The position numbers and the translations under genes are program-made. From Stella humosa (lineage in GTDB: Bacteria > Pseudomonadota > Alphaproteobacteria > ATCC43930 > Allostellaceae), in the NCBI RefSeq assembly GCF_006738645.1, contig NZ_AP019700.1, positions 4,198,001 to 4,262,000 of the forward strand: a stretch of DNA of 64,000 nucleotides, read 5' to 3'. The notes under the pieces were generated by a model. It did no database searches and was not told the origin of the DNA. It worked only from the letters and a program-made list of their open reading frames with translations. This document shows positions 28,415 to 40,091 of this stretch, in pieces. Each line of letters opens with the position of its first letter. Position 1 is the first letter of the stretch.

Positions 28415-28852
28415 ATGAGCCTGCTCGCCGCCTGTTCCAGCCTGTTCCTGGCCGCCTTCCTGGCCGCCACCATCCTGCCCCTGCCGTCCGAGGCGGGATT
28501 GGCGGCACTGCTGGCCGCCGGCATCGGCCCGCCCGCCCTGCTGGTCGTGGTGGCAACCGCCGGCAACGTCCTGGGATCGGTCGTCAACTGGCTGCTCGGC
28601 CGGCTGGCCGCCCGGTTCCGCGACCGCCCCTGGTTCCCGGTCGACGCGCGGCGCATGCAGCGCGCCGAGGCCTGGTTCCGCCGCTGGGGCGTGTGGACGC
28701 TGCTGCTGGCCTGGGTCCCGGTCATCGGCGACCCGCTGACGCTGGTGGCGGGCATGCTGGGCGTACGCTGGTGGGCGTTCCTGATCCTGGTGACGATCGG
28801 CAAGGCTAGCCGCTATGTCGCGGTGGTGGTGGGGATGGCGGCTTGGGGGTAG
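28415..28852 (+). CDS. YqaA/DedA-like (VTT domain) small membrane protein
   Basis: A 145-residue membrane protein with four hydrophobic segments. It has PLPSEAGLAALLAAG near the N-terminus and GNVLGSVVNWLLGR, then LLLAWVPVIGDPLTLVAGMLGV. The G-x-x-x-G rich pattern and the P-x-x-G-D-P-L-T element match the YqaA branch of the VTT/SNARE-associated family, whose larger relatives include phospholipid scramblases. The ATG at 28415 is the first start giving a clean N-terminal hydrophobic helix. It is divergent from the gamma-glutamyltransferase gene, 89 bp apart. The function is unproven. Confidence 0.8.
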   Translation: MSLLAACSSLFLAAFLAATILPLPSEAGLAALLAAGIGPPALLVVVATAGNVLGSVVNWLLGRLAARFRDRPWFPVDARRMQRAEAWFRRWGVWTLLLAWVPVIGDPLTLVAGMLGVRWWAFLILVTIGKASRYVAVVVGMAAWG

Positions 28853-29202
28853 TGCCTTGAAGGCCCGCTGAAGCCCCGTGCCTCTCGATCCGCACAAACG
28901 CGCTGTCTCAAGAAATATTCGAGAACAAGGGGTAAAGAACAATCAGCGCGGCGCGTCCCGTCGAATGGGACCGCCGATCAGACATCGGAGTCAAGCTGGC
29001 AGCGGAAGAGGAAACAACCGACATTTCTCGACCTGCGTCGTCGTATAGCTCGGCAGGGCCGTTGAACCAATCGCCTCTGTTATCGCTGACGCAACACTCC
29101 TTTGGGTGCTCCTCACGCGTTTTAACCGTACTTAACTCGCCAGACGCTCGCCCCGGCCGGAGCATGTTGGCCATGTTCTCCAGGAAGCACAGGAGCCATG
29201 GC
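28853..29202. other. 350-bp non-coding, AT-richer gap at the left edge of the accessory cassette
   Basis: The base composition is visibly less GC-rich than the flanks, with ATATTCGAG, GGTAAAGAAC and TTTTAACCGTACTTAAC stretches. No coding frame looks real. It precedes the SMP-30 gene and contains a candidate regulator site at 29108-29137 and an AGGAG ribosome site just before 29203. It may mark a recombination or transfer boundary. Confidence 0.5.
29108..29137 (-). promoter_or_regulatory. Candidate triple 10-bp repeat operator (weaker copy) upstream of the SMP-30 gene
   Basis: Read on the minus strand, three consecutive 10-bp units begin AGTTAA, GGTTAA and CGTGAG, so an NGT recurs every 10 bp. 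This copies the pattern of the clearer sites at 32469 and 36790. It ends 65 bp upstream of the SMP-30 start and has the same orientation relative to its gene as the others. Confidence 0.4.
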
Positions 29203-30315
29203 ATGAGGATCTCAGGAAAATTCGCCACCGGCGCCGCGGGCGTCGGCCTCGCCGGTTTGGTCGCCTACCTCTGCTTCTGGCCCGTCCCGGCCGAACCCAG
29301 GTCCTGGTCAGCCCCGACACCGCCTGGCTATACCGGCGCCCACGCGCCCAACGCAGGCTTGGCCGGCCTGCGCGACATCGCCATCGGGAACGAGTTTGGC
29401 CCGGAGCACATCGCGATCGGACCGGACGGCAAGCTGTACACCGCGATGACCAGTGGCGGCCTGTTGCGCATGGATGCCGACGGCGGCAATCAGGAAGTCT
29501 TCGCCAGCACCGGCGGACGCGTCCTCGGCTTCGCCTTCGATGCCCAGGGCCGGATGATCGCGGCCGACGCCATGAAAGGGCTGCTCGTCATCGACGCCGA
29601 TCGGCGCGTGGGCGTGCTGGCCAACCGCGTCAGCGCGGGCGATCCCATCCGCTATGCCAACTCCGTCGTCGTGGCACCGGACGGAACGATCTACTTCACC
29701 GACGCCTCGACGCGTTTTGCGCCCGCGGAATGGGGCGGCACCTACGAAGCCAGCGTGCTCGACATCCTGGAGCAGTCGGCGAGCGGGCGCGTGCTCGCCT
29801 TCGATCCCGCGGCGGCCAGCACCCGCGTCGTCGCCCATGGCCTGTCATTCGCCAACGGGATCGCCCTGTCGTCGGACGGGCGAACGCTATTCGTGGCCGA
29901 GACCGGCCGCTACCGCATATGGAAGATCGACACCGCTGCGCGCGCCGTCGACGTGCATGGCGGGTCGCCCCAGGCGAGGGTGCTGCTCGACAACCTGCCG
30001 GGCTACCCCGACAATCTGATGCGGGGCCGCGAGGGCCGCATCTGGGTCGGGCTGTTCCGGCCGCGCAATCCGGCCGCCGACGGGCTGGCCGAACGGCCGT
30101 TCCTGCGGAAGATATTGCTGCGCCTGCCGCGGTCCCTGTTGCCGCTGGGAAAGCCGTACGGGCATGTCTTCGCCATCGACGAGGAGGGCCGCGTGGTCGC
30201 TGACCTGCAGGACCCGAGCGGCGCCTATCCCGAGACGACCGGTGCCACCGAGACGGCCGATCGCCTCTACATCCATAGCCTGCACGCACGCACGATCGGG
30301 TGGGCACCGCGATGA
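29203..30315 (+). CDS. SMP-30/strictosidine-synthase-like beta-propeller protein
   Basis: A 370-residue protein starting MRISGKFATGAAGVGLAGLV, whose first 30 residues form a signal peptide or membrane anchor. The rest is a six-bladed propeller: EHIAIGPDGKLYTAM, YANSVVVAPDGTIYFTDAS, SFANGIALSSDGRTLFVAET and GYPDNLMRGREGRIWVGLF are the blade motifs of the strictosidine synthase-like/APMAP group (LPGYPDN is typical). In the family these are lactonases, hydrolases or lipid-related proteins. The ATG 29203 with AGGAG upstream is preferred over upstream in-frame starts. It is convergent with the MFS gene. Confidence 0.8.
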   Translation: MRISGKFATGAAGVGLAGLVAYLCFWPVPAEPRSWSAPTPPGYTGAHAPNAGLAGLRDIAIGNEFGPEHIAIGPDGKLYTAMTSGGLLRMDADGGNQEVFASTGGRVLGFAFDAQGRMIAADAMKGLLVIDADRRVGVLANRVSAGDPIRYANSVVVAPDGTIYFTDASTRFAPAEWGGTYEASVLDILEQSASGRVLAFDPAAASTRVVAHGLSFANGIALSSDGRTLFVAETGRYRIWKIDTAARAVDVHGGSPQARVLLDNLPGYPDNLMRGREGRIWVGLFRPRNPAADGLAERPFLRKILLRLPRSLLPLGKPYGHVFAIDEEGRVVADLQDPSGAYPETTGATETADRLYIHSLHARTIGWAPR

Positions 30316-30346
30316 CGCCTGGCGCGGCCCGCCGGCGCCATCCGCC

Positions 30347-31576
30347 TCAGGCCGGTGCCAAGCGCGGCGTTCGTGGCATCGTCAGCGCGAAGACCACCAG
30401 CCCGAGCAGCGTCGCGGCGAAGCCCGCCCAGACTGCGGAGAGCAGCCCGAACCCGGCGCCGATCACCAGCCCGCCTGCCCAGGCGCCGATGGCGTTGGCG
30501 ACATTGAGGGCGGCGAGGTTCATCGCTCCCATCAGCGTCGGCGCCTCCGGCGCAAAGCGCGTGAGACGCACCTGAATGGTCGGGATGGCGATCATCGTCG
30601 TGGCGCCCACACCGAGGAGTGCCGGCATCAGCACCCAGGTATTCGACCCGCCGAGCGCGAGCACTGCCAGCAGGACCAGCGCGCTGGCGAAGCCGAGGAC
30701 CAGACCGCGCGACGGGTGGGCATCCGCGAGCCGCCCGCCGACGAGGTTGCCGGCCGTCATGCCGATGCCGAACAGGGCGAGTGCCACGGGAATCCAGCTC
30801 GGGCTCAGCGCCGCCGCATCGGTGACGAAGGGGCCTATGAAGGTATAGACCGCGAAGATGCTGGCGATGCCCAGTGCCGCGACCAGCATCATGGCCCACA
30901 CCTCCGGCTTGCGCAGCGCGCTCAGCTCCTGGACGACAGGGCCGCCCTTCAGCGCATCCGAGCGAGGCACCCAAGCCCAGAGCGCCAGGAACGAGAGCAC
31001 CCCCACCCCGGCGACGGTGAGGTAGGTGTTCCGCCAGCCGACGTTCTGGCCAAGGTAGGTCGCCAGCGGCGAGCCGACGATCGTCGCCACCGTCAGGCCG
31101 GTCATCACCAGCGCGAAGGCCTTGCCGCCGCGGCCGGGCCCGACGATGTAGGAGGCGACGACGGCACCTGCGCCGAAGTAGGCGCCCTGCGGCATACCGC
31201 TGACGAAGCGCGCGAGCGCGAACATCCCGAGATTCGTCGCGACTGCCGAGAGCAGGTTGCCAACGATGAAAAGGCCCATCAGGCCGAGCAGCAGCGTGCG
31301 GCGGTTCAATCGCGCCGCCGCCAGGGTCACCAGCGGAGCACCGACGACGACGCCGAATGCATAGGCCGTGATGGCGTTCGTGGCGACCGGAATACTGAGG
31401 CCCAGGCTGGCCGAGAAGAGCTGGATGATCCCCATGCTCGCGAACTCGGAGGTGCCGATACAGAAGCTGCCGAACGCCAGCGCGAAGAGCGTCAGGCCCC
31501 GCGCGCGTTGCTGCGCCACGTTTGAGCAGTGCACCTTCACCGCGGTGCACTGCGCCTCATAACCCTTGGTCAGCAT
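30347..31576 (-). CDS. MFS transporter (DHA1/AraJ-like exporter)
   Basis: A 409-residue protein with 12 predicted membrane helices. It starts ALAFGSFCIGTSEFASMGI, the helix-1 pattern (GTxEF) of the sugar-efflux/AraJ branch of DHA1 exporters, and has the loop 2-3 motif region AAARLNRRTLLLGLMGLF and helix 5 motif C-like GSPLATYLGQNVGWRNTY. These usually expel small metabolites or drugs. It lies 45 bp downstream of the hydrolase gene on the same strand, so the two likely form an operon. Confidence 0.88.
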   Translation of the reverse strand: MLTKGYEAQCTAVKVHCSNVAQQRARGLTLFALAFGSFCIGTSEFASMGIIQLFSASLGLSIPVATNAITAYAFGVVVGAPLVTLAAARLNRRTLLLGLMGLFIVGNLLSAVATNLGMFALARFVSGMPQGAYFGAGAVVASYIVGPGRGGKAFALVMTGLTVATIVGSPLATYLGQNVGWRNTYLTVAGVGVLSFLALWAWVPRSDALKGGPVVQELSALRKPEVWAMMLVAALGIASIFAVYTFIGPFVTDAAALSPSWIPVALALFGIGMTAGNLVGGRLADAHPSRGLVLGFASALVLLAVLALGGSNTWVLMPALLGVGATTMIAIPTIQVRLTRFAPEAPTLMGAMNLAALNVANAIGAWAGGLVIGAGFGLLSAVWAGFAATLLGLVVFALTMPRTPRLAPA

Positions 31577-31621
31577 GGGAGCTCCGTCTCTGGCGGATCG
31601 GCAGGCTTTCGGCAGCCGCTT

Positions 31622-32386
31622 TCAGCGCGGCGCGCCGCGTGCCGCGCGGTCGATGGCACCGGCCACCGCCTCCGGCTGCGACATGTAGATCGCGTGGCTG
31701 CCGCGCACCTCGGTCACCGTGGCGTTCGCGCGCGCCGCCCACTGGCGCTGTGCCGCCGGTGGAATGATGCGGTCCTCGGTCGCCACGACGTAGGCCGTCG
31801 GCCGGAAGCGCCAGGCCGCATGGTTGACCGGCGCTGCGAAGGTGGCGGCCGCGACGGGCACTTGCGCATCAGCGAGGAAAGCGCCGCGCTCGGCCGGGAG
31901 ATCGTGGGCGAAGGCTTGCGGGAAGATCGCCGGATCGAAGAACAGGTTGCCGTCGCTGGACGGCTGCACAGGCGGCTGCGATCCGTTGCCGATCAAGCCG
32001 AGGACTGAGTCGCCGGCATCCGGCATGAAGGCCGCGACGAAGACCAGGCCGGCCACCTTGTCGTCGCTGCCGGCTTCGGTGATGACCACGCCGCCATAGG
32101 AATGGCCGACGAGCAGCGCCGGCCCGTTCTGCCGCGCCAGAACGCGCCGCGTTGCAGCGACGTCGTCCGCGAGCGAACTCAGCGGGTTCTGCACGATGCT
32201 GACGGCATAGCCGCGCGCCCGCAGCAGGCGATGGACGTCCTGCCAACCCGAGCCGTCGGCCCAGGCGCCATGCACGAGAACGACGTTGCGCACCGCCGAC
32301 CGCTCCTGCGCTTCGCCCGAATCCGTTCCAGCGAGCAAGAGTGCGGCCGCGGCGGCCACGATCCGAATGGGTTTGCCGATGGACAT
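31622..32386 (-). CDS. Secreted alpha/beta hydrolase
   Basis: A 254-residue protein with a signal peptide (residues 1-27, ending SGEAQE). The fold is clear: oxyanion segment VLVHGAWADGSGW near residue 36, nucleophile elbow LLVGHSYGGVV with Ser near 94, acid in VATEDRIIPP and catalytic His in GSHAIYMSQPE near the end. It belongs to the family of small periplasmic esterase-like hydrolases often annotated as salicylate-esterase or EstC-like. The substrate is unknown. It is first gene of a two-gene unit with the MFS exporter, and a triple GGT repeat lies 82 bp upstream. Confidence 0.85.
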   Translation of the reverse strand: MSIGKPIRIVAAAAALLLAGTDSGEAQERSAVRNVVLVHGAWADGSGWQDVHRLLRARGYAVSIVQNPLSSLADDVAATRRVLARQNGPALLVGHSYGGVVITEAGSDDKVAGLVFVAAFMPDAGDSVLGLIGNGSQPPVQPSSDGNLFFDPAIFPQAFAHDLPAERGAFLADAQVPVAAATFAAPVNHAAWRFRPTAYVVATEDRIIPPAAQRQWAARANATVTEVRGSHAIYMSQPEAVAGAIDRAARGAPR

Positions 32387-32468
32387 TTCACTCTCCTGTT
32401 CGATCGCCCTGATCTCAGTGGCCGTGCCTACTGCATTGAAACGATACGTGTTTGGCCGATGGGCACGC

Positions 32469-32498
32469 GGTTAATTGCGGTAAAGGGCGGTGGGTTGC
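32469..32498 (+). promoter_or_regulatory. Triple 10-bp direct repeat, likely operator upstream of the hydrolase-MFS unit
   Basis: GGT recurs at exactly 32469, 32479 and 32489; the units begin GGTTAA, GGTAAA and GGTGGG. The same arrangement occurs at 36790-36819 beside the winged-helix regulator gene. Head-to-tail repeats of about one DNA turn are the usual binding mode of OmpR-type winged helices. Confidence 0.6.
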
Positions 32499-32518
32499 AG
32501 GCAACGCCGCGACCCGCT

Positions 32519-33670
32519 TCACCGCACGCTCAGGCCGTGGGGATGCTCGGGGTTGGGCGTATGCGTCAGCCGTTCGCCAGCCGGTGCCGCGACGTTTCCA
32601 TCGATGCCGTAGATCGCGATGTGCAGGCCCCAATACCCCGTCCCGAAGACGATGAGCGCTGCTGCGAGCCCTGCTGGAACACCGGCCAACCGGCGCTTGA
32701 CCGCCGGCAGGAAGTGCACCTGGCGGGTATGATCCGCGGCGATGGCGACGATGATCGCCATGATCAGTGCATGACCGATCAGGTCGACCCGCCCGAAGGG
32801 ATAGACCGCCGCGTTGAAGATGATGAACAGGGCGATGGCCGCCAGCCGGCGCACCAGCGGCGTCCAAATCAGGCCGAAACCCATCGTGAACTCGGCGACG
32901 CCCGCCATCGGAATGAACATGTCGCGCGGCAAGCCGAGCGTGAGGAACGGCTTCTCGTCCACCAGCGGATAGAACCAGTCCGGGTAGGCGACCTTTTCCA
33001 GGCTCGACCACATGAGGGCGATCGCCACGCCCCAGCGCAGCACCTCGAAGCGATGCTTGCGCCAGTTCGTATCGGCGCACGCCTCCAGCACCAGGTAGGC
33101 GCTGACGCCGACGCCGAGCGCCAGGTAGTCGAGCAGATGGAAGACGTCGTAGTCGCGCAGCGCCAGCAGCCACAGGCCGACGAGGCCGAGCGCGGCCAGG
33201 GGCTGCGTCCTGCGCGAGAAGACCAGCCCGGCGATCAGGAGCTGTATCCACGACACCCATTCGGCGGGGGTCTTGAGATCCGGCGTCAGATAGACACCGC
33301 CGACCGCGAAGATCGCCACGAAGAAGGCGGCGACGACCGCGCGCACGAAGTCGTCGAGGCGAAGCCAGAGCGGGTCGGTGATGCGGTCCATGGCGCGCAG
33401 GATCGCCTCCCCCGCTCGCGATTCCTCGACCACCCGGGTTGCCAGGAAGGACACGAGTACCAGCGCGATGCCGCTCCAGAACCAGGCATCGGCGAGCGTG
33501 GCCCCGATCGGCTGCGGCGGCGCGCCGACGATGTAGGGAGCGAACCATTTCACGTGCGCCTGCGCCGGCACCGAAGCCGCCAGGAATGCCAACGCGGCCA
33601 GGCCTGGTCGGCGGGCGACGAAACGAAGCTGAGCGGGAGCGCCCAGCGTCGTCCTTCTTGGGGCCCTCAT
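32519..33670 (-). CDS. DoxX-like membrane protein with N-terminal HVKWF segment
   Basis: A 383-residue integral membrane protein. The signal peptide ends at AQA, followed by HVKWFAPYIVGAPPQPIG at the mature N-terminus, then about nine hydrophobic segments. The central part (WGVAIALMWSSLEKVAYPDWFYPL, then AGVAEFTMGFGLIWTP) resembles DoxX/quinone-associated membrane proteins. The exposed His at the mature start and the DoxX-like bundle suggest a redox or metal role, but this is inference. The ATG at 33670 overlaps the stop of the 2TM gene (ATGA), so it is co-translated with it and with the fusion oxidoreductase. Confidence 0.65.
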   Translation of the reverse strand: MRAPRRTTLGAPAQLRFVARRPGLAALAFLAASVPAQAHVKWFAPYIVGAPPQPIGATLADAWFWSGIALVLVSFLATRVVEESRAGEAILRAMDRITDPLWLRLDDFVRAVVAAFFVAIFAVGGVYLTPDLKTPAEWVSWIQLLIAGLVFSRRTQPLAALGLVGLWLLALRDYDVFHLLDYLALGVGVSAYLVLEACADTNWRKHRFEVLRWGVAIALMWSSLEKVAYPDWFYPLVDEKPFLTLGLPRDMFIPMAGVAEFTMGFGLIWTPLVRRLAAIALFIIFNAAVYPFGRVDLIGHALIMAIIVAIAADHTRQVHFLPAVKRRLAGVPAGLAAALIVFGTGYWGLHIAIYGIDGNVAAPAGERLTHTPNPEHPHGLSVR

Positions 33671-33879
33671 CTGCTTTCCGAGTTCTTGATGCCGGGCCCG
33701 AGGACGAACCACCAATGAGACAGGAGACCGACGGCCCACCCCAACAGAACCCAAAGCACCCAGTAGGGCGGCCCTTTGAATATGTTGATGACGACGAGCA
33801 GCAGCATGACGGCGGTGAACGAGAACGCGTGGATGTTAAAGCCGATCTGCTTTTGCCGATGACTTGAGCGCTTCATCAT
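33667..33879 (-). CDS. Small 2TM-domain protein
   Basis: A 70-residue protein starting MMKRSSHRQKQIGFNIHAFS. Two hydrophobic helices (about residues 20-36 and 41-60) are separated by a short KGPPYWVLW turn; GWAVGLLSHWWFV matches the 2TM domain (GW...GL..H). Its function in the family is unknown. It is locked between its neighbours by 4-bp ATGA overlaps on both sides, which argues for a stoichiometric partner of the fusion enzyme or the DoxX-like protein. Confidence 0.75.
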   Translation of the reverse strand: MMKRSSHRQKQIGFNIHAFSFTAVMLLLVVINIFKGPPYWVLWVLLGWAVGLLSHWWFVLGPGIKNSESR

Positions 33880-36560
33880 GGTCTCCGGGCGGTACGGGAG
33901 GGCGATGCGTCGGGGGAGCGCTGGTCGGCGTCATCGGGTGCGCCCGGTGCTGCGATCTGCAGGTCGCCTTTCGGCAGCGTCTGGCAGGCGAGCACGTGGC
34001 CGGCCGCGATCTCCTCAGCAGAGAACAGAGCCTGCCCGTCCGTCACGAACGGGCCCGAAAGCACGCGGGCACGGCAGCGGCCGCACGCGCCTTCGCCACA
34101 GGATTGGCCGAACGGCACATGCGCCGCGTTGGCTGCAGCCAGGATCGTCTGCCCTGGCCGGCAGGCGAAATCGGCACCGCCGCGCAGCCTGATGCGAAAG
34201 TCGTCAATGCCAGCCGCGGCCGCGGCGAGCGCGATCACCTGTGCGGTCTCGATCCGCGTCGTCCTGCTCCGGCTCGAGACGAAGGCCTCTGTATGGATCG
34301 CGTCGCGTGGAACGCCGAGCTCGGTCAGCGCACCGATCGTCGCCTGCATCATCGCCGCCGGCCCGCACAGATGCACCCGCACGACGTCCCGGACATGCGG
34401 CCGCAACGCCTCGCGATCGATCCGCGCCCGGGGGCCTTGCCACGCGGCTTCAGGTGCGGTGACGAAGATCGCCGCGTCGAGGCCGGGCAGCCGCTTGGCG
34501 AAGGCCCCGATCTCTTCCGCGAACAGGATCTCGGCCTCGGATCGGAACGACGCCAAGAGCGTGATCCGGCCCCGATGGCCCGCATGCGCCGCCGCTGCCA
34601 GCATACTGACGATCGGCGTGATGCCGACCCCGCCGGCGATGAGCAGAAGGTGGCCGGACCCGAGATCGCGCTGCAGGTCCAGGGTGAAGTCACCCAGCGG
34701 CGCGTTCAGCCGCAAGGCCTCTCCGGCCGCAAGCTCCCGGTGCAGGAATGTCGAGCCGAGCCCATGCTCTTCCCGCTTCACGGTGATTTCGAAGAAGTGG
34801 CGTTCGCCGGGCGCGCTCGATATCGAGTAGGCGCGCTCGACCATGTCGCCCGCGATCGGCAGCTCCAGCTTAACGTACTGGCCGGCGCGGAACCGGAAGG
34901 GCAGTTCGCCACCCCGCAGCGGCTCGAAGCGTATCCGCCTGGCAGACGGCGTCAGGGGTTCGACCTGCGAGACCCGCATGTGGCCCCGCCATGGCGCCGA
35001 TGGATCGGCCGGCGCCGGGGGCGAGCGGATCGCCCGCCACATCCGTCCCGCCTGCCGCCAGCTCAAGGCCGCGTTCGCGGCCATGATGCCGCCCCAGGGA
35101 GCCGCCTCGATGCCCGGCCCCCACGCGTCCTGCCCGGACAGATAGAGCCCCTTGACGTCCGTGCGACATCGCGCGATCGGCGAGCGCAGACGCGCGGCGC
35201 TAGTCGCGAGGCCGTAGAACGCACCGTCGACGCTGTTCTGGTAGGTCATGAACGACAGCGGCGTTGCCAACTCGGCGAAGGCGACGCCAGCCCGGAAGCC
35301 CGGCCACTGCCGATCGAGCCGGTCGATCAGCCGCGTCGTAACCTGCGCCTTCAACGCGCTGTAATCTTCCGGCCGCGCGCCCTGCTCGGTCCCCAGCCAC
35401 GGCCGGAAAATCGCCGGATCGACGAACTGCATCACCTCGACGGTGTGCCAGCGGGCAGACGGGTTGTTCATCGAGCTGAACGAAACAAAGAGGATGCCCT
35501 CGCCCAGCGGCCGCGAGATGCCCTGATCGTCGTCGATATCCGGCATGAACCAGTGATTCGCGCCGTCGAGGCCGAGGCGTGCCGGGGATCGGTCGAGCCC
35601 GACGAACAGGAGTATGGTGGCAACCTCCTTGGGCAGCTTGGCCAACTCCCGTTCCCACGACGCGCCATGGTCAGGCCCGAGCAGGGAGGCCGTGTTGCGG
35701 GCGCCGACCGCGGAGACGATGCATGGCGCCGACACCCTGTAGCGGCTGCCCGTCGCGCGGTCCTCGACGCCGACGCCCGTGGCTCGGCCCGCCTCGACGG
35801 TGATCTCGTGGACCCGCTGGCGCGGGCGCACGACGACGCCGAACCGCTCCAGCCCGTCGAGGATGGCGCGGCCCAGTGCCTTCGGACCGCCGACCGGATG
35901 CGTCGCCCCGCCCATGAACGCCTGCAGGGCGATCATGGCGTGCCCGCCGAAGCTGCTCGTCGCGGGCGGCGGTCCGAAAAGCCCCCAGCGGGCCGAGACG
36001 ATCGCCCGCAGCGCCGGATCGCGGAAGTGGCGCGCGGCAACGTCGGCGATGGTGCGGAACGTATCCGGATAGAGCAGTTCGATCACCGGCAACCCGGCGG
36101 CCCGAATGGCCGGCGCGGCCGATGAAACGAGGTTGCGCGCCGTCAACCCGCGCGCGGCCTTGCGCGCAGCGGCGAAGAAGCGATCGACGGCATCGGCCTC
36201 ATGCGGAAACCGGGCCTTCAGACGAGCGCGGAACGCCGCCTCGGACGCGGGGACGGCGAACTCGAAACCAGGGAAGTGAAGGACGTCGAAGTCGTCCGGC
36301 AGGCGATGGAACTGTACTCGCCCGTCCGTCAGGTAGTTCAGGATCGGGCCTGGTCCCGCCGTCAGGTAGTGCACTCCGGTGCCGAAATGGTAGCGGCCTT
36401 CCCGGGTGAACTCATGCGTCATGCCGCCCGGCGTGTAGTGCTGCTCGAGCATCAGGACGCGCTTGCCGCCGAACTCGGCCAGCAGTCGCGCGGCGGTCAT
36501 CCCGCCCATCCCGGAACCGATGACGACGACATCCACGCGCTCGTCCGGGATCAACGCCAT
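33876..36560 (-). CDS. Fusion: CrtI/retinol-saturase-like flavoenzyme + ferredoxin-reductase domain + 2Fe-2S ferredoxin domain
   Basis: An 894-residue three-module protein. Module 1 (about 1-515) is a phytoene-desaturase/retinol-saturase/carotenoid-isomerase-like enzyme: VIGSGMGGMTAARLLAEFGG near residue 12, EQHYTPGGMTHEF, FGTGVHYL, SSFGGHAMI and the C-terminal FAD contact LYLSGQDAWGPGIEAAPWGG. Module 2 (about 527-757) is a ferredoxin-NADP reductase domain: FAD motif RAYSISSAP, NAD(P) loop GGVGITPIVSML, then HLCGPAAMM. Module 3 (about 780-870) is a plant-type 2Fe-2S ferredoxin with CGEGACGRC plus a later Cys in LACQT, all four ligands present. The start at 36560 has GGGGA upstream; an extension to 36587 lacks one. 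Inference: NAD(P)H electrons feed the saturase in cis. Confidence 0.85.
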   Translation of the reverse strand: MALIPDERVDVVVIGSGMGGMTAARLLAEFGGKRVLMLEQHYTPGGMTHEFTREGRYHFGTGVHYLTAGPGPILNYLTDGRVQFHRLPDDFDVLHFPGFEFAVPASEAAFRARLKARFPHEADAVDRFFAAARKAARGLTARNLVSSAAPAIRAAGLPVIELLYPDTFRTIADVAARHFRDPALRAIVSARWGLFGPPPATSSFGGHAMIALQAFMGGATHPVGGPKALGRAILDGLERFGVVVRPRQRVHEITVEAGRATGVGVEDRATGSRYRVSAPCIVSAVGARNTASLLGPDHGASWERELAKLPKEVATILLFVGLDRSPARLGLDGANHWFMPDIDDDQGISRPLGEGILFVSFSSMNNPSARWHTVEVMQFVDPAIFRPWLGTEQGARPEDYSALKAQVTTRLIDRLDRQWPGFRAGVAFAELATPLSFMTYQNSVDGAFYGLATSAARLRSPIARCRTDVKGLYLSGQDAWGPGIEAAPWGGIMAANAALSWRQAGRMWRAIRSPPAPADPSAPWRGHMRVSQVEPLTPSARRIRFEPLRGGELPFRFRAGQYVKLELPIAGDMVERAYSISSAPGERHFFEITVKREEHGLGSTFLHRELAAGEALRLNAPLGDFTLDLQRDLGSGHLLLIAGGVGITPIVSMLAAAAHAGHRGRITLLASFRSEAEILFAEEIGAFAKRLPGLDAAIFVTAPEAAWQGPRARIDREALRPHVRDVVRVHLCGPAAMMQATIGALTELGVPRDAIHTEAFVSSRSRTTRIETAQVIALAAAAAGIDDFRIRLRGGADFACRPGQTILAAANAAHVPFGQSCGEGACGRCRARVLSGPFVTDGQALFSAEEIAAGHVLACQTLPKGDLQIAAPGAPDDADQRSPDASPSRTARRP

Positions 36561-36775
36561 CGTCCCCGGAAGCCCGCGATGGCACATGCTTTTGCGATCG
36601 GTTCGCCGTCAGGCGCTGTCCCGTTCGTCAGGACGCCCGCAGGCCGGCAGTCCAGCGCGACGGGTAAGAACAGGAGGGTTTTCATTTCGCGTGCCCTGTT
36701 TCGCCGCAACCCTCGCGAACGATGACAGTCGGCCATTCGCCCACGTTCGCGCCGTCGGGACAATTATCGCCGAGG

Positions 36776-36819
36776 CCTGCCATGGCAGGGGTAAAAGCCG
36801 GTAAAACGCGGTAGGATAT
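36776..36819 (+). promoter_or_regulatory. Palindrome plus triple 10-bp repeat in the divergent fusion/regulator promoter
   Basis: A perfect 14-bp palindrome CCTGCCATGGCAGG (36776-36789) directly abuts three direct repeats with GGT at 36790, 36800 and 36810; units begin GGTAAA, GGTAAA and GGTAGG. It lies 80 bp before the regulator start and 229 bp from the fusion start, in the 339-bp divergent gap 36561-36899. No other element is confidently readable in that gap. Confidence 0.6.
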
Positions 36820-36899
36820 TGCCCGTCCGAACCGGCGCCGGTCCCCTCGATCAGCCTCTTCGCGACCTCCTGGGATGTCTCGAGACCATCGGAGAAGGC

Positions 36900-39857
36900 A
36901 TGGAGTCGAGGTCGAGAGGCGTCGAGGACAGGGCCTATCGCTTCGGTGAATACCGGCTGCTTCCAGCCCGGCAGCTGCTGCTGCACGGCGACGACCCGGT
37001 CCGGATCGGCAGTCGTGCCTTCGATCTGCTGCGACTGCTGGTGGAACGACAGGGCGAGCTGTTGAGCAAGGCGGAACTGATCCGCTTCGCCTGGCCCGAC
37101 ACCTTCGTTCACGGCGACAATCTCAAGGTCAACATCGCCGCGTTGCGGCGCGCCCTGGCGCAGGCGGGAACCGATGTGCCCTTTATTGCGACGATCCCCG
37201 GCCGGGGCTACCGCTTCGTCGCGACGGTGCAGGTGGAAGGTGCCACCACCCCCGACGACGCCCCGGCTCGGTTTCCAGCCCCGGGCGATGGCCTGCCGGG
37301 GCCGTCCAGCGTGATCGGGCGTGAGGACGATATTGCCCAGATCGCCGATGCGCTGGATGGGCGCCGCTTCCTCACGATCGTCGGCCCGGCCGGGGTGGGC
37401 AAGACCACCACGGCCGTCGCCGCGGCGCGGCGGGCGGCCGAGTGCTACCCGGACGGCATCTGCTTCATCGACCTTGCCGCGATCGGCGATCCCCAGCTCG
37501 TCGCGGCAGCGGTCGCCTGCGGGATCGGCCTGGGCGACAATCCGAAGGACATCCTGGTCGGCATCGTCAATGCCTTGCGCGGCCGCCGCAAGCTGCTGAT
37601 CTTCGACAATTGCGAGCATGTGCTGACGGCAGCATCGGTGGTGGCCGAGCATATCCGCGCGGCAGTTCCCGACATCGCCATCCTCGCCACCAGCCGGGAA
37701 CCCCTCAGGACCCGGAACGAGACTCTCCATCGCCTGCCGCCGCTGCCCTGCCCGGCCAAGGACGACGGCATCGATCGCGAGCGGGCCATGACGTTTCCGG
37801 CCGTAGCACTCTTCGCCGCGCGCGCGGGCGAGGCGGCCGGCTTCCGGATGAGCGATGCCGACGCGCCCGTCGTCGCCAGCATCTGCCGGCGCCTCGATGG
37901 CATCCCGCTCGCGATCGAGCTGGCGGCGCCACGCCTGCTTTCCTGCGACGCGGCCACCCTCCTGGGTCTCCTTGAGCGCAACTTCGAACTGCTCAGCTAC
38001 GGTCCGCCGCATGCCCCCATCCGCCAGCAGACGCTGCTGGCCACCCTGGACTGGAGCTATCGCCTGCTGTCGGACGATGAGGCCGCAATGCTGCGGCTTC
38101 TGGCCGTGTTTGCCGGCACCTTCACGCTGGAGGATGCCGTCGGCGTCGGCCGGCACCTCGAGCATTCGCCCGACGCGGTTGCCGGCTGGATCGAGGGCCT
38201 CGCCGGCAAGTCGCTGCTGTCGTCAGGCTTCGCCGAAGGCGGCTTGCAATACCGCCTGCTCGATGCGACCCGCAGCTATGCGGCAGAGCGCCTGCGTGGC
38301 GCGCGCGAGCATCGCCATGCCAGCGCGGCCCACGCGGCCTGGTTGCTCGGCCTGTTCGAGCAGGCCGAGGTCGAATGGCAGTGGCGCATCCGCGAGGAAT
38401 GGACCGCCGCCTATGGTCGCCGCGCCAACGACCTGCGCAAGGCGATCGACTGGGCTTTCGGCGAGGATGGCGATGCGCGGCTGGGCATCGGGCTCACCGC
38501 CGCCGCCATACCACTGTGGGACGAGCTGTCCTCGGTCGAGGAGAGCGGGCGGCATGTCCGCCGCACCCTGCGGTCGCCAGCCCTTGCAGAATGCGCCCCC
38601 GCCCTGCAGATGCGGCTGGCGACCGCACATGCCTGGAGCCTGACCTATACCGAGCGCTTCGACCCGGAGGCCGAGGCGGCCTGGCAGGAAAGCCTGCGGC
38701 TGGCCGAGCTGACCGGCGACGCGGACTATCGCCTGCGGGCGCTGTGGGGGCTGGCAATACTACAGTGCTATTGCGGCCGGCATCGCCAGGCGCTGGCCAG
38801 CCTCCGGCAATTCGAGGCCCTCGCGGAGCGGGAGGACGACCGGTCCGCAGCACCGGCCGGCGAACGGCTTCGGGTGATCACCGAGTTCTACCTGGGCGAT
38901 GTTCGCGGCGCGCACGAGGAACTGAAGCGGCTCGTGCGACGCCACGACACGCATGCCCGGCGATCGCGCGTCGCGCGCTTCCAGATCGATTCCTATGTCG
39001 GGATCAAGACGTCGCTCAGCCTGGCCGAATGGGTGTGCGGCCTTCCCGAGCAGGCGGTCGTGACGGCGCAGGCGGCGCTCGATGCCGCCACGACCATCGG
39101 GCATGTGGTCTCGCAATCGAACGTCCTGGTGCTGGCGGTGCTGCCGATCGACCTCTGGACGGGGCGGATCGCCGCGGCGGAGCGCCATCTGACCGCCTTG
39201 GCCGCCAATCTCGACCAGCCGGACATCGCCCTCTGGGGACCGGCTGCCCGCTTCTTCGAGGGCATGATCCGGCACGAACGCGGCGATGCCGGGGGGCTCG
39301 ACCAGGTGCGGACCGTGCTCGCCGAACTGGCCGCCGCCAACCTCCTGGTGCGATTGCCGAACTGCTTCGCCATGCTGGCGGCGGCGGCATTGCAGCACGA
39401 CCGGATGGATATCGCGCGGGAGAGCATCGCCGCCGCCCTCGACCATCTCGAGCGCCAGGAGGAGTTCTGGTGCCAGCCGGAGGTGCTGCGCGTGCGCGGC
39501 CTCGTGCAATGGCGCGACGGCGATACGGAGGAAGCGGAACGGACCCTGCTGCGCGCCGCGCAGTTGGCGGGCGAATCCGGCGCGTACTCTTTCGAGTTGC
39601 GGGCCGCGCTGAGCCTGGCCGAATGCTGGACCGCCGGCGGCCGCCCCGCCGCCGCCCTGGCCCTGCTGGACCCGATCTGCCGTCGCTTCGACGAGGCCGG
39701 CGAGAGCAGGGATATCGTCCAGGCCCGCCAATTGCTGGCGCGGCTCCACATGCCGGCCGGTCAGGCGCGAACCCCAGCGGCCTCACGCGGTCGGGACGAA
39801 ATCAGCGAAGCGCGCCGCCCGCGCCGCCGACGCGGGCATCCCACCCCAGCTTCTTGA
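36900..39857 (+). CDS. Winged-helix/NB-ARC ATPase transcriptional regulator
   Basis: A 985-residue one-component regulator. The N-terminal OmpR/PhoB-type winged helix (about 12-95) has FDLLRLLVERQGELLSKAEL and the wing PFIATIPGRGYRFVA. An NB-ARC-type ATPase follows, with Walker A GPAGVGKTTTAVAAA near residue 170, Walker B KLLIFDNCEHV and sensor TSREPLRT. The C-terminal half (about 500-960) is helical and repeat-like, resembling TPR/ATPase-associated sensing domains. Family knowledge: such proteins switch on after ligand and ATP binding. ATG 36900 is chosen for the GGAGAAGG ribosome site; upstream in-frame codons are unlikely. It is divergent from the fusion gene and flanks a GGT triple repeat. 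Confidence 0.88.
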   Translation: MESRSRGVEDRAYRFGEYRLLPARQLLLHGDDPVRIGSRAFDLLRLLVERQGELLSKAELIRFAWPDTFVHGDNLKVNIAALRRALAQAGTDVPFIATIPGRGYRFVATVQVEGATTPDDAPARFPAPGDGLPGPSSVIGREDDIAQIADALDGRRFLTIVGPAGVGKTTTAVAAARRAAECYPDGICFIDLAAIGDPQLVAAAVACGIGLGDNPKDILVGIVNALRGRRKLLIFDNCEHVLTAASVVAEHIRAAVPDIAILATSREPLRTRNETLHRLPPLPCPAKDDGIDRERAMTFPAVALFAARAGEAAGFRMSDADAPVVASICRRLDGIPLAIELAAPRLLSCDAATLLGLLERNFELLSYGPPHAPIRQQTLLATLDWSYRLLSDDEAAMLRLLAVFAGTFTLEDAVGVGRHLEHSPDAVAGWIEGLAGKSLLSSGFAEGGLQYRLLDATRSYAAERLRGAREHRHASAAHAAWLLGLFEQAEVEWQWRIREEWTAAYGRRANDLRKAIDWAFGEDGDARLGIGLTAAAIPLWDELSSVEESGRHVRRTLRSPALAECAPALQMRLATAHAWSLTYTERFDPEAEAAWQESLRLAELTGDADYRLRALWGLAILQCYCGRHRQALASLRQFEALAEREDDRSAAPAGERLRVITEFYLGDVRGAHEELKRLVRRHDTHARRSRVARFQIDSYVGIKTSLSLAEWVCGLPEQAVVTAQAALDAATTIGHVVSQSNVLVLAVLPIDLWTGRIAAAERHLTALAANLDQPDIALWGPAARFFEGMIRHERGDAGGLDQVRTVLAELAAANLLVRLPNCFAMLAAAALQHDRMDIARESIAAALDHLERQEEFWCQPEVLRVRGLVQWRDGDTEEAERTLLRAAQLAGESGAYSFELRAALSLAECWTAGGRPAAALALLDPICRRFDEAGESRDIVQARQLLARLHMPAGQARTPAASRGRDEISEARRPRRRRGHPTPAS

Positions 39858-40091
39858 CCTGCTGCGCCACGGCCTCCAGGTCAGCCTGGTTCGCCCCGTC
39901 GCGAGCGAGGATTGGCATGGCGGCGTGACCGACCTGCACCGAACGGGCAGGGTCGTGGGCGTCGACCACGGCTGGAACCTCACCCACGGCATAGCCGCGG
40001 CCCGAACGCAGCCGCATTTCCGGTCGACCGGGGGTCGGCCGCGGGCGCATGATCGCACGATCGATCGGACCGACATCAACAGCCGGCTGCC

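Follow-up and report, generated by a model that had tools for sequence, protein, structure and literature searches.

Flavoproteins of the CrtI/CRTISO superfamily are not usually encoded together with a reductase, and the question raised here is how, and to what end, such a flavoprotein came to carry one. The case is a single gene in a 64,000-nucleotide stretch of the Stella humosa genome (contig NZ_AP019700.1, positions 4,198,001 to 4,262,000; hereafter, the window), whose 894-residue product joins a flavin adenine dinucleotide (FAD)-binding domain of this superfamily to a ferredoxin–NADP+ reductase (FNR)-type reductase and a ferredoxin domain. The answer that we favor, at somewhat better than an even chance, is that the protein is a self-sufficient enzyme in which electrons from NAD(P)H would pass through the FNR part and the ferredoxin to the catalytic FAD, most likely for the saturation of a C=C bond in a hydrophobic compound; that the electron supply runs in this direction, inward from NAD(P)H, is by itself probable. 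Direct support extends to the three domains with their motifs, to the fold predicted for the first two of them, to the occurrence of this architecture in two phyla, and to the existence of another kind of fusion, described below. The gene and its parts are as follows.

33876..36560, minus strand: whole fusion gene; 894 codons plus stop in a single open frame; a relative in another phylum aligns over residues 7-869
35052..36539, minus strand: FAD domain of the CrtI/CRTISO superfamily, residues 8-503; NAD_binding_8; TIGR02730 is the best model, below its cut-off; predicted fold match to 4rep
34992..35051, minus strand: linker, residues 504-523; alignable with the Actinosynnema protein
34275..34991, minus strand: FNR-type reductase with FAD and NAD(P) subdomains, residues 524-762; FAD_binding_6 and NAD_binding_1; predicted fold match to 4eh1_A
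33969..34175, minus strand: plant-type [2Fe-2S] ferredoxin domain, residues 796-864; Fer2; Cys 821/826/829/859; low confidence in the predicted structure

The open reading frame (ORF) runs from an ATG at 36560 to a stop at 33878-33876 with no internal stop, and an alternative in-frame ATG at 36587 would give 903 residues. These limits agree with the initial annotation of this DNA, made from the letters alone, which left the minus strand unstated. That annotation had also read three domain types with intact motifs in the one frame, and Pfam and the motif positions bear this out. The four families that it expected a domain search to find are all present above their cut-offs (NAD_binding_8 at residues 13-70, FAD_binding_6 at 528-625, NAD_binding_1 at 640-741, and Fer2 at 796-864), while the ten Pfam families listed do not include Amino_oxidase (PF01593). 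The motifs GSGMGG at 15, RAYS at 576, GGVGITP at 643, and CGPAAM at 732 are intact, and the ferredoxin cysteines are spaced C821-x4-C826-x2-C829-x29-C859. FAD_binding_6 (46.4 bits) and NAD_binding_1 (59.1 bits), both above cut-off, identify the central part as FNR-type, and Fer2 (49.3 bits against a cut-off of 21) identifies a plant-type [2Fe-2S] domain predicted to bind the cluster.

The N-terminal domain belongs to the CrtI/CRTISO FAD superfamily, as indicated by a GxGxxG motif near the N terminus (the GSGMGG at 15) and by the family fold. A structure of the fusion was predicted with 62 sequences, few of which cover the FNR part and two the ferredoxin; it has a mean predicted local distance difference test score (pLDDT) of 84.9 and a predicted template modeling score (pTM) of 0.79, with low confidence in the ferredoxin. 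In this model residues 8-503 match the fold of gamma-carotene desaturase (4rep; Z 35.0, root-mean-square deviation 3.1 over 460 residues, 18% identity), and the other close solved folds are likewise desaturases, 4dgk (CrtI phytoene desaturase) and 5mog. A profile of FAD-domain relatives also matches 4rep, with an E value of 5.8e-40. The best curated sequence model for the domain is that of CRTISO/CrtH (TIGR02730), but the score of 140.4 bits (142.5 in the genome search) lies far below the cut-off of 586.9, and the crtI_fam model (TIGR02734) gives 81.2 bits against a cut-off of 238.1, so that the protein falls outside both curated families despite its CrtI-like predicted fold. In contrast, CRTISO proteins in three cyanobacterial genomes score 931-951 bits and are 506-519 residues long, a length that leaves no room for extra domains, and in a tree that includes CRTISO the family of the fusion protein is separate from the CRTISO clade (Shimodaira–Hasegawa-like approximate likelihood ratio test, SH-aLRT, 98). 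Thus, the label CrtI/retinol-saturase-like used in the initial annotation holds at the level of the CrtI superfamily and no more finely. RetSat is itself kin to this superfamily, and we know of no fused FNR–ferredoxin chain in RetSat.

For the C-terminal half, the best curated models are Hcr (PRK10684; 166.6 bits against a cut-off of 383) and PaaE (TIGR02160; 163 against 420.8), both of which combine an FNR with a C-terminal [2Fe-2S] domain. The fusion scores below both cut-offs and belongs to neither family, and Hcr and PaaE are stand-alone proteins in E. coli. An FNR and a ferredoxin are therefore already one protein in these reductases, with single models spanning both, and the earlier view that all three families are normally separate applies to one joint, that of the FAD domain to the FNR–ferredoxin unit. 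In the predicted structure, residues ~519-765 match flavohaemoglobin- and BenC-type reductases, and residues 524-762 match 4eh1_A with a Z of 28.8. The structures 6kbh and 6laa, which we take to be CYP116B with a phthalate-dioxygenase-reductase-type module, also match the C-terminal half. Like the fusion, the self-sufficient P450 CYP116B holds a catalytic domain, a reductase, and a ferredoxin in one chain; however, its catalytic domain is a haem P450, whereas the N-terminal half of the window protein has the predicted CrtI fold, and no P450 family is among the ten Pfam families listed, which places the fusion outside CYP116B. On a Streptomyces plasmid (L144:340-2538) and a Methylobacterium plasmid (L145:664-2499), FNR–ferredoxin modules of the same broad class are joined to PNPOx_N and MOSC_N domains. 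The same kind of module thus appears to serve as a built-in reductase for more than one partner domain.

The full fusion is real and rare among the searched genomes. Of the four family genomes searched, which belong to a single genus, one carries it, as does one of 43 in the order. In overlapping samples of 398 phylum and 385 class genomes, none of the other candidates scored is a full fusion; they are FAD-domain proteins and, in one case, an FNR–ferredoxin protein with a different N terminus. These absences are soft, because only the best few candidates per genome were scored (at most 2 in the phylum, class, and Actinosynnema-family samples, 5 in the Actinomyces family, and 21 in the order). 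The S. humosa genome itself, one contig of 5.83 Mb, encodes no second protein that matches the query over the FAD domain, its five other matches being to the FNR or ferredoxin parts. A survey of the architecture, which the initial annotation had proposed, yielded one further full fusion among the genomes searched: a protein of 849 residues in Actinosynnema pretiosum, which aligns with residues 7-869, linker included, with 438 of 872 columns identical. It was found in one of 390 genomes searched in the Actinosynnema family. Since the two hosts are so distant, horizontal spread of the full fusion is suggested. Further fusions may exist, because the scan of species genomes, which used aligned FAD-domain relatives as the query, kept the best 80 of 427 confirmed loci (589 stretches). 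In viral contigs, two stretches matched a pattern and neither was a relative, in a search that finds close relatives only; the matches in eight phage records all fall within residues 524-865 and comprise FNR or ferredoxin only; and none of 537 plasmid records with a match covers 80% of the query. Two candidates, plasmid match H7 (from residue 464) and class match L024 (from residue 491), were rejected as full fusions, being FNR–ferredoxin ORFs without the FAD domain. None of the papers listed in a literature search describes this FAD domain–FNR–ferredoxin architecture, whose component families are known, and the earlier statement that no characterized protein has this order is not contradicted by them.

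A second kind of fusion, in which a related FAD domain is followed by a BenC-class FNR without a ferredoxin, occurs at five of the 80 loci kept.

L063: Actinomyces timonensis
L068 and L133: one Propionibacteriaceae metagenome-assembled genome (MAG)
L107 and L110: two Spirochaetes MAGs

Pfam recognizes both FNR subdomains at two of these loci and one subdomain at each of the other three. The FAD domains are 29-33% identical to that of the window protein over the aligned length. Their FNRs score best against BenC/MmoC models, whereas those of the window and Actinosynnema proteins do so against Hcr/PaaE and lie in another part of the tree. At L107, in a MAG, the called ORF begins 150 bases into the match, and the N-terminal motif is missing from it. 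The second kind is well kept in the Actinomyces family, where 29 of 213 genomes match it, 25 with a single unbroken match along almost the full length and four with broken matches. At G1348:C42:30494-35248, two second-kind fusions stand in tandem, 52% and 51% identical to the A. timonensis protein.

In a 22-row FNR tree, which includes two long rows from the S. humosa genome (L003 and L005), each kind forms one group (99/99), and forcing the two together costs 30.9 log units, so that one clade is rejected by the approximately unbiased (AU) test (p-AU 0.00176). The FAD-domain trees also recover each kind with full support, but there a single clade of both kinds is not rejected (p-AU 0.409; 39 of 97 tree rows). 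In a quick tree that also holds CRTISO, the first kind splits off ahead of all others and the second lies deeper (SH-aLRT 87 and 88). Two separate fusions are favored over a single fusion whose FNR was exchanged later, and both histories fit. A different joint is seen at L062:305-3523 (a Richelia sp. MAG), where a CRTISO-like FAD domain and a carboxylesterase (COesterase 579-1058) share one 1072-residue frame.

In the mechanism that we propose, a hydride from NADH or NADPH would reduce the FAD of the FNR part, and the [2Fe-2S] cluster would then relay electrons one at a time to the FAD in the CrtI/CRTISO-like domain. A hydrophobic substrate bound in the N-terminal domain would receive a hydride from this reduced catalytic FAD at one of its C=C bonds, which would thereby be saturated. 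In the second kind, the FNR-bound FAD would reduce the catalytic FAD directly, with no cluster in cis. The cofactor motifs, intact in all three parts, and the resemblance of the FNR–ferredoxin half to the reductases Hcr and PaaE both favor this scheme. So do CRTISO as the best-matching model of the FAD domain, together with the dependence of CRTISO on reduced FAD (PMC3382138), and the rejection of a single clade by the FNR tree. Inward flow is supported because reductases of two classes sit on related FAD domains; FNRs of two classes on such domains in different phyla are as a shared electron need would predict, and the related fusions with a different electron supply in other phyla suggest NAD(P)H as the source of electrons for such enzymes. 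The initial annotation's reading of an NAD(P)H-to-ferredoxin chain in cis is thus supported by the anatomy and by the two FNR classes. Its further proposal of a reductive reaction powered by NAD(P)H is supported as to electron supply; we infer the direction of flow, the ferredoxin as relay, net saturation, and the substrate class, and it is our judgement that a stoichiometric electron supply fits saturation better than isomerization.

Several points weigh against this interpretation. The ferredoxin is modeled at low confidence, and no other searched genome of the genus or order carries the gene. In the loci examined, no FNR gene lies near the stand-alone FAD-domain relatives, so that an FNR chain is no general feature of this family. 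An isomerase could equally well make use of reduced FAD, and the FAD-domain AU test described above leaves both kinds compatible with one clade. Accordingly, the broadest form of the proposal is put forward tentatively, as possible rather than probable: that the CrtI/CRTISO scaffold gave rise at least twice, via different FNR classes, to self-sufficient C=C saturases driven by NAD(P)H, and that these act on a non-carotenoid, unsaturated hydrophobic substrate and show in their architecture how RetSat-like enzymes could be fed with electrons.

The consequences would be practical as well as mechanistic. For RetSat-like flavoproteins, passages of two sources leave the choice of donor open, with the wording "NADH/NADPH- or FADH-dependent" (PMC7439486, PMC5577314). 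A protein with its own donor chain makes the electron-donor question testable in one purified polypeptide and, if the saturase reading is true, its architecture shows how RetSat-like enzymes can receive electrons. The protein might also serve as a one-component biocatalyst that reduces C=C bonds in hydrophobic compounds, and its NAD(P)H use offers a simple assay for finding substrates of a widespread, uncharacterized bacterial family.

Among other reactions, the one that survives best is a redox-neutral isomerization, in which the FNR–ferredoxin part would only keep the FAD reduced while a double bond is turned or moved and not saturated. No curated model, after all, fits the FAD domain better than that of CRTISO, and passages of PMC3382138 state that CRTISO needs reduced FAD although its reaction is a non-redox isomerization and that CrtI with reduced FAD also isomerizes. 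We nevertheless consider an isomerase unlikely, given a score far below the CRTISO cut-off, a position outside the CRTISO clade, and, as a matter of judgement, a dedicated stoichiometric chain that exceeds the needs of catalytic reduction.

Less likely still is reverse flow, whereby the FAD domain would desaturate its substrate and NAD(P)+, or some other acceptor, would receive the electrons from the chain. It gains some support from the FAD domain, whose nearest solved folds are those of desaturases, but Hcr, PaaE, and BenC reductases run from NAD(P)H outward. CrtI, moreover, passes its electrons to oxygen or quinones, and its R148 and D149 have been proposed as catalytic groups, according to passages of PMC3382138. 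In a profile alignment these two residues stand opposite small, non-acidic consensus residues of the fusion's family, and this lack of conservation, the proposed base included, is a weak hint against desaturase chemistry.

There is little to recommend a third alternative, that the protein is a carotenoid-pathway enzyme acting on a home-made carotenoid. In its favor, the S. humosa genome has four genes of the SQS_PSY (squalene/phytoene-synthase) family, and three of five other fusion genomes searched have an SQS_PSY match. However, no S. humosa protein exceeds the crtI_fam cut-off, and the other two fusion genomes, A. timonensis and one Spirochaetes MAG that is perhaps incomplete, lack an SQS_PSY match, so that at least some of the fusions are unlikely to act on a home-made carotenoid. 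All four SQS_PSY genes lie outside the window, in keeping with the initial report of no crtB there. Two of them are consecutive at 3.42 Mb and adjoin a flavoprotein match, an arrangement that, by analogy, appears to resemble hopanoid HpnCDE. A second, divergent SQS_PSY pair is at 1.63 Mb (G000:C1:1629774-1631464, L042).

That a sequencing or assembly error joined two genes, the danger the initial annotation had named, can be dismissed: although the fusion is missing from the three other genomes of the genus, one pattern of codon-position GC is kept through the FAD domain–FNR junction, and the full-length Actinosynnema relative in another phylum, 50% identical through the linker, in practice refutes an artefact. 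Third-position GC across the junction is high (0.83-0.93 in blocks 451-480, 481-510, and 511-540); of the other two forward frames, one has stops there and the other is open over the printed stretch. At ~28.8-40.0 kb of the window (28843-40010), all matches in the three congeners are short and of low identity; the longest extends for ~700 bases at 66%, and no match falls in the fusion gene among the best 40 candidates scored per genome. The flanks match at 71-82% and 76-97%, and at the boundary, 40011, a stretch of a DAO-family gene is 97%, 85%, and 76% identical in the three. Because the congeners match the flanks but not the fusion gene, the gene lies in an accessory stretch; 28843-40010 is possibly an insertion. 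Two neighbors in this stretch deserve mention.

36819..39857, plus strand: regulator-like gene (Trans_reg_C, AAA, and TPR by Pfam), divergent from the fusion gene; possible regulator, the link being putative
32519..33754, minus strand: probable membrane protein, the next downstream gene, 121 bases from the fusion; weak MauE match below cut-off

Homologues of the downstream gene occur on plasmids, 65-73% identical in the best eight of 22 records. Two such plasmid regions hold DUF305, NnrS, Rrf2, or copper-related genes and no annotated fusion gene, and the downstream gene is therefore not counted as an operon partner. Clustering of ORFs from the 80 loci and part of the window revealed no shared pathway, most clusters being near-copies from related genera, and a single association, with regulator genes, was conspicuous. 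At 14 of the 80 loci, several of them in related Pseudomonas, FAD-domain relatives adjoin a PadR (8 loci) or TetR (6 loci) gene, as assigned by Pfam on one representative of each, across gaps of 3-391 bases and one of 554 attributed to a wrongly called start. This association, together with the divergent regulator-like gene in the window, hints that a small molecule induces the gene. At L028:6688-9287, a FAD-domain relative overlaps or abuts a same-strand 2-hydroxyacid dehydrogenase gene, with a Rieske oxygenase gene nearby.
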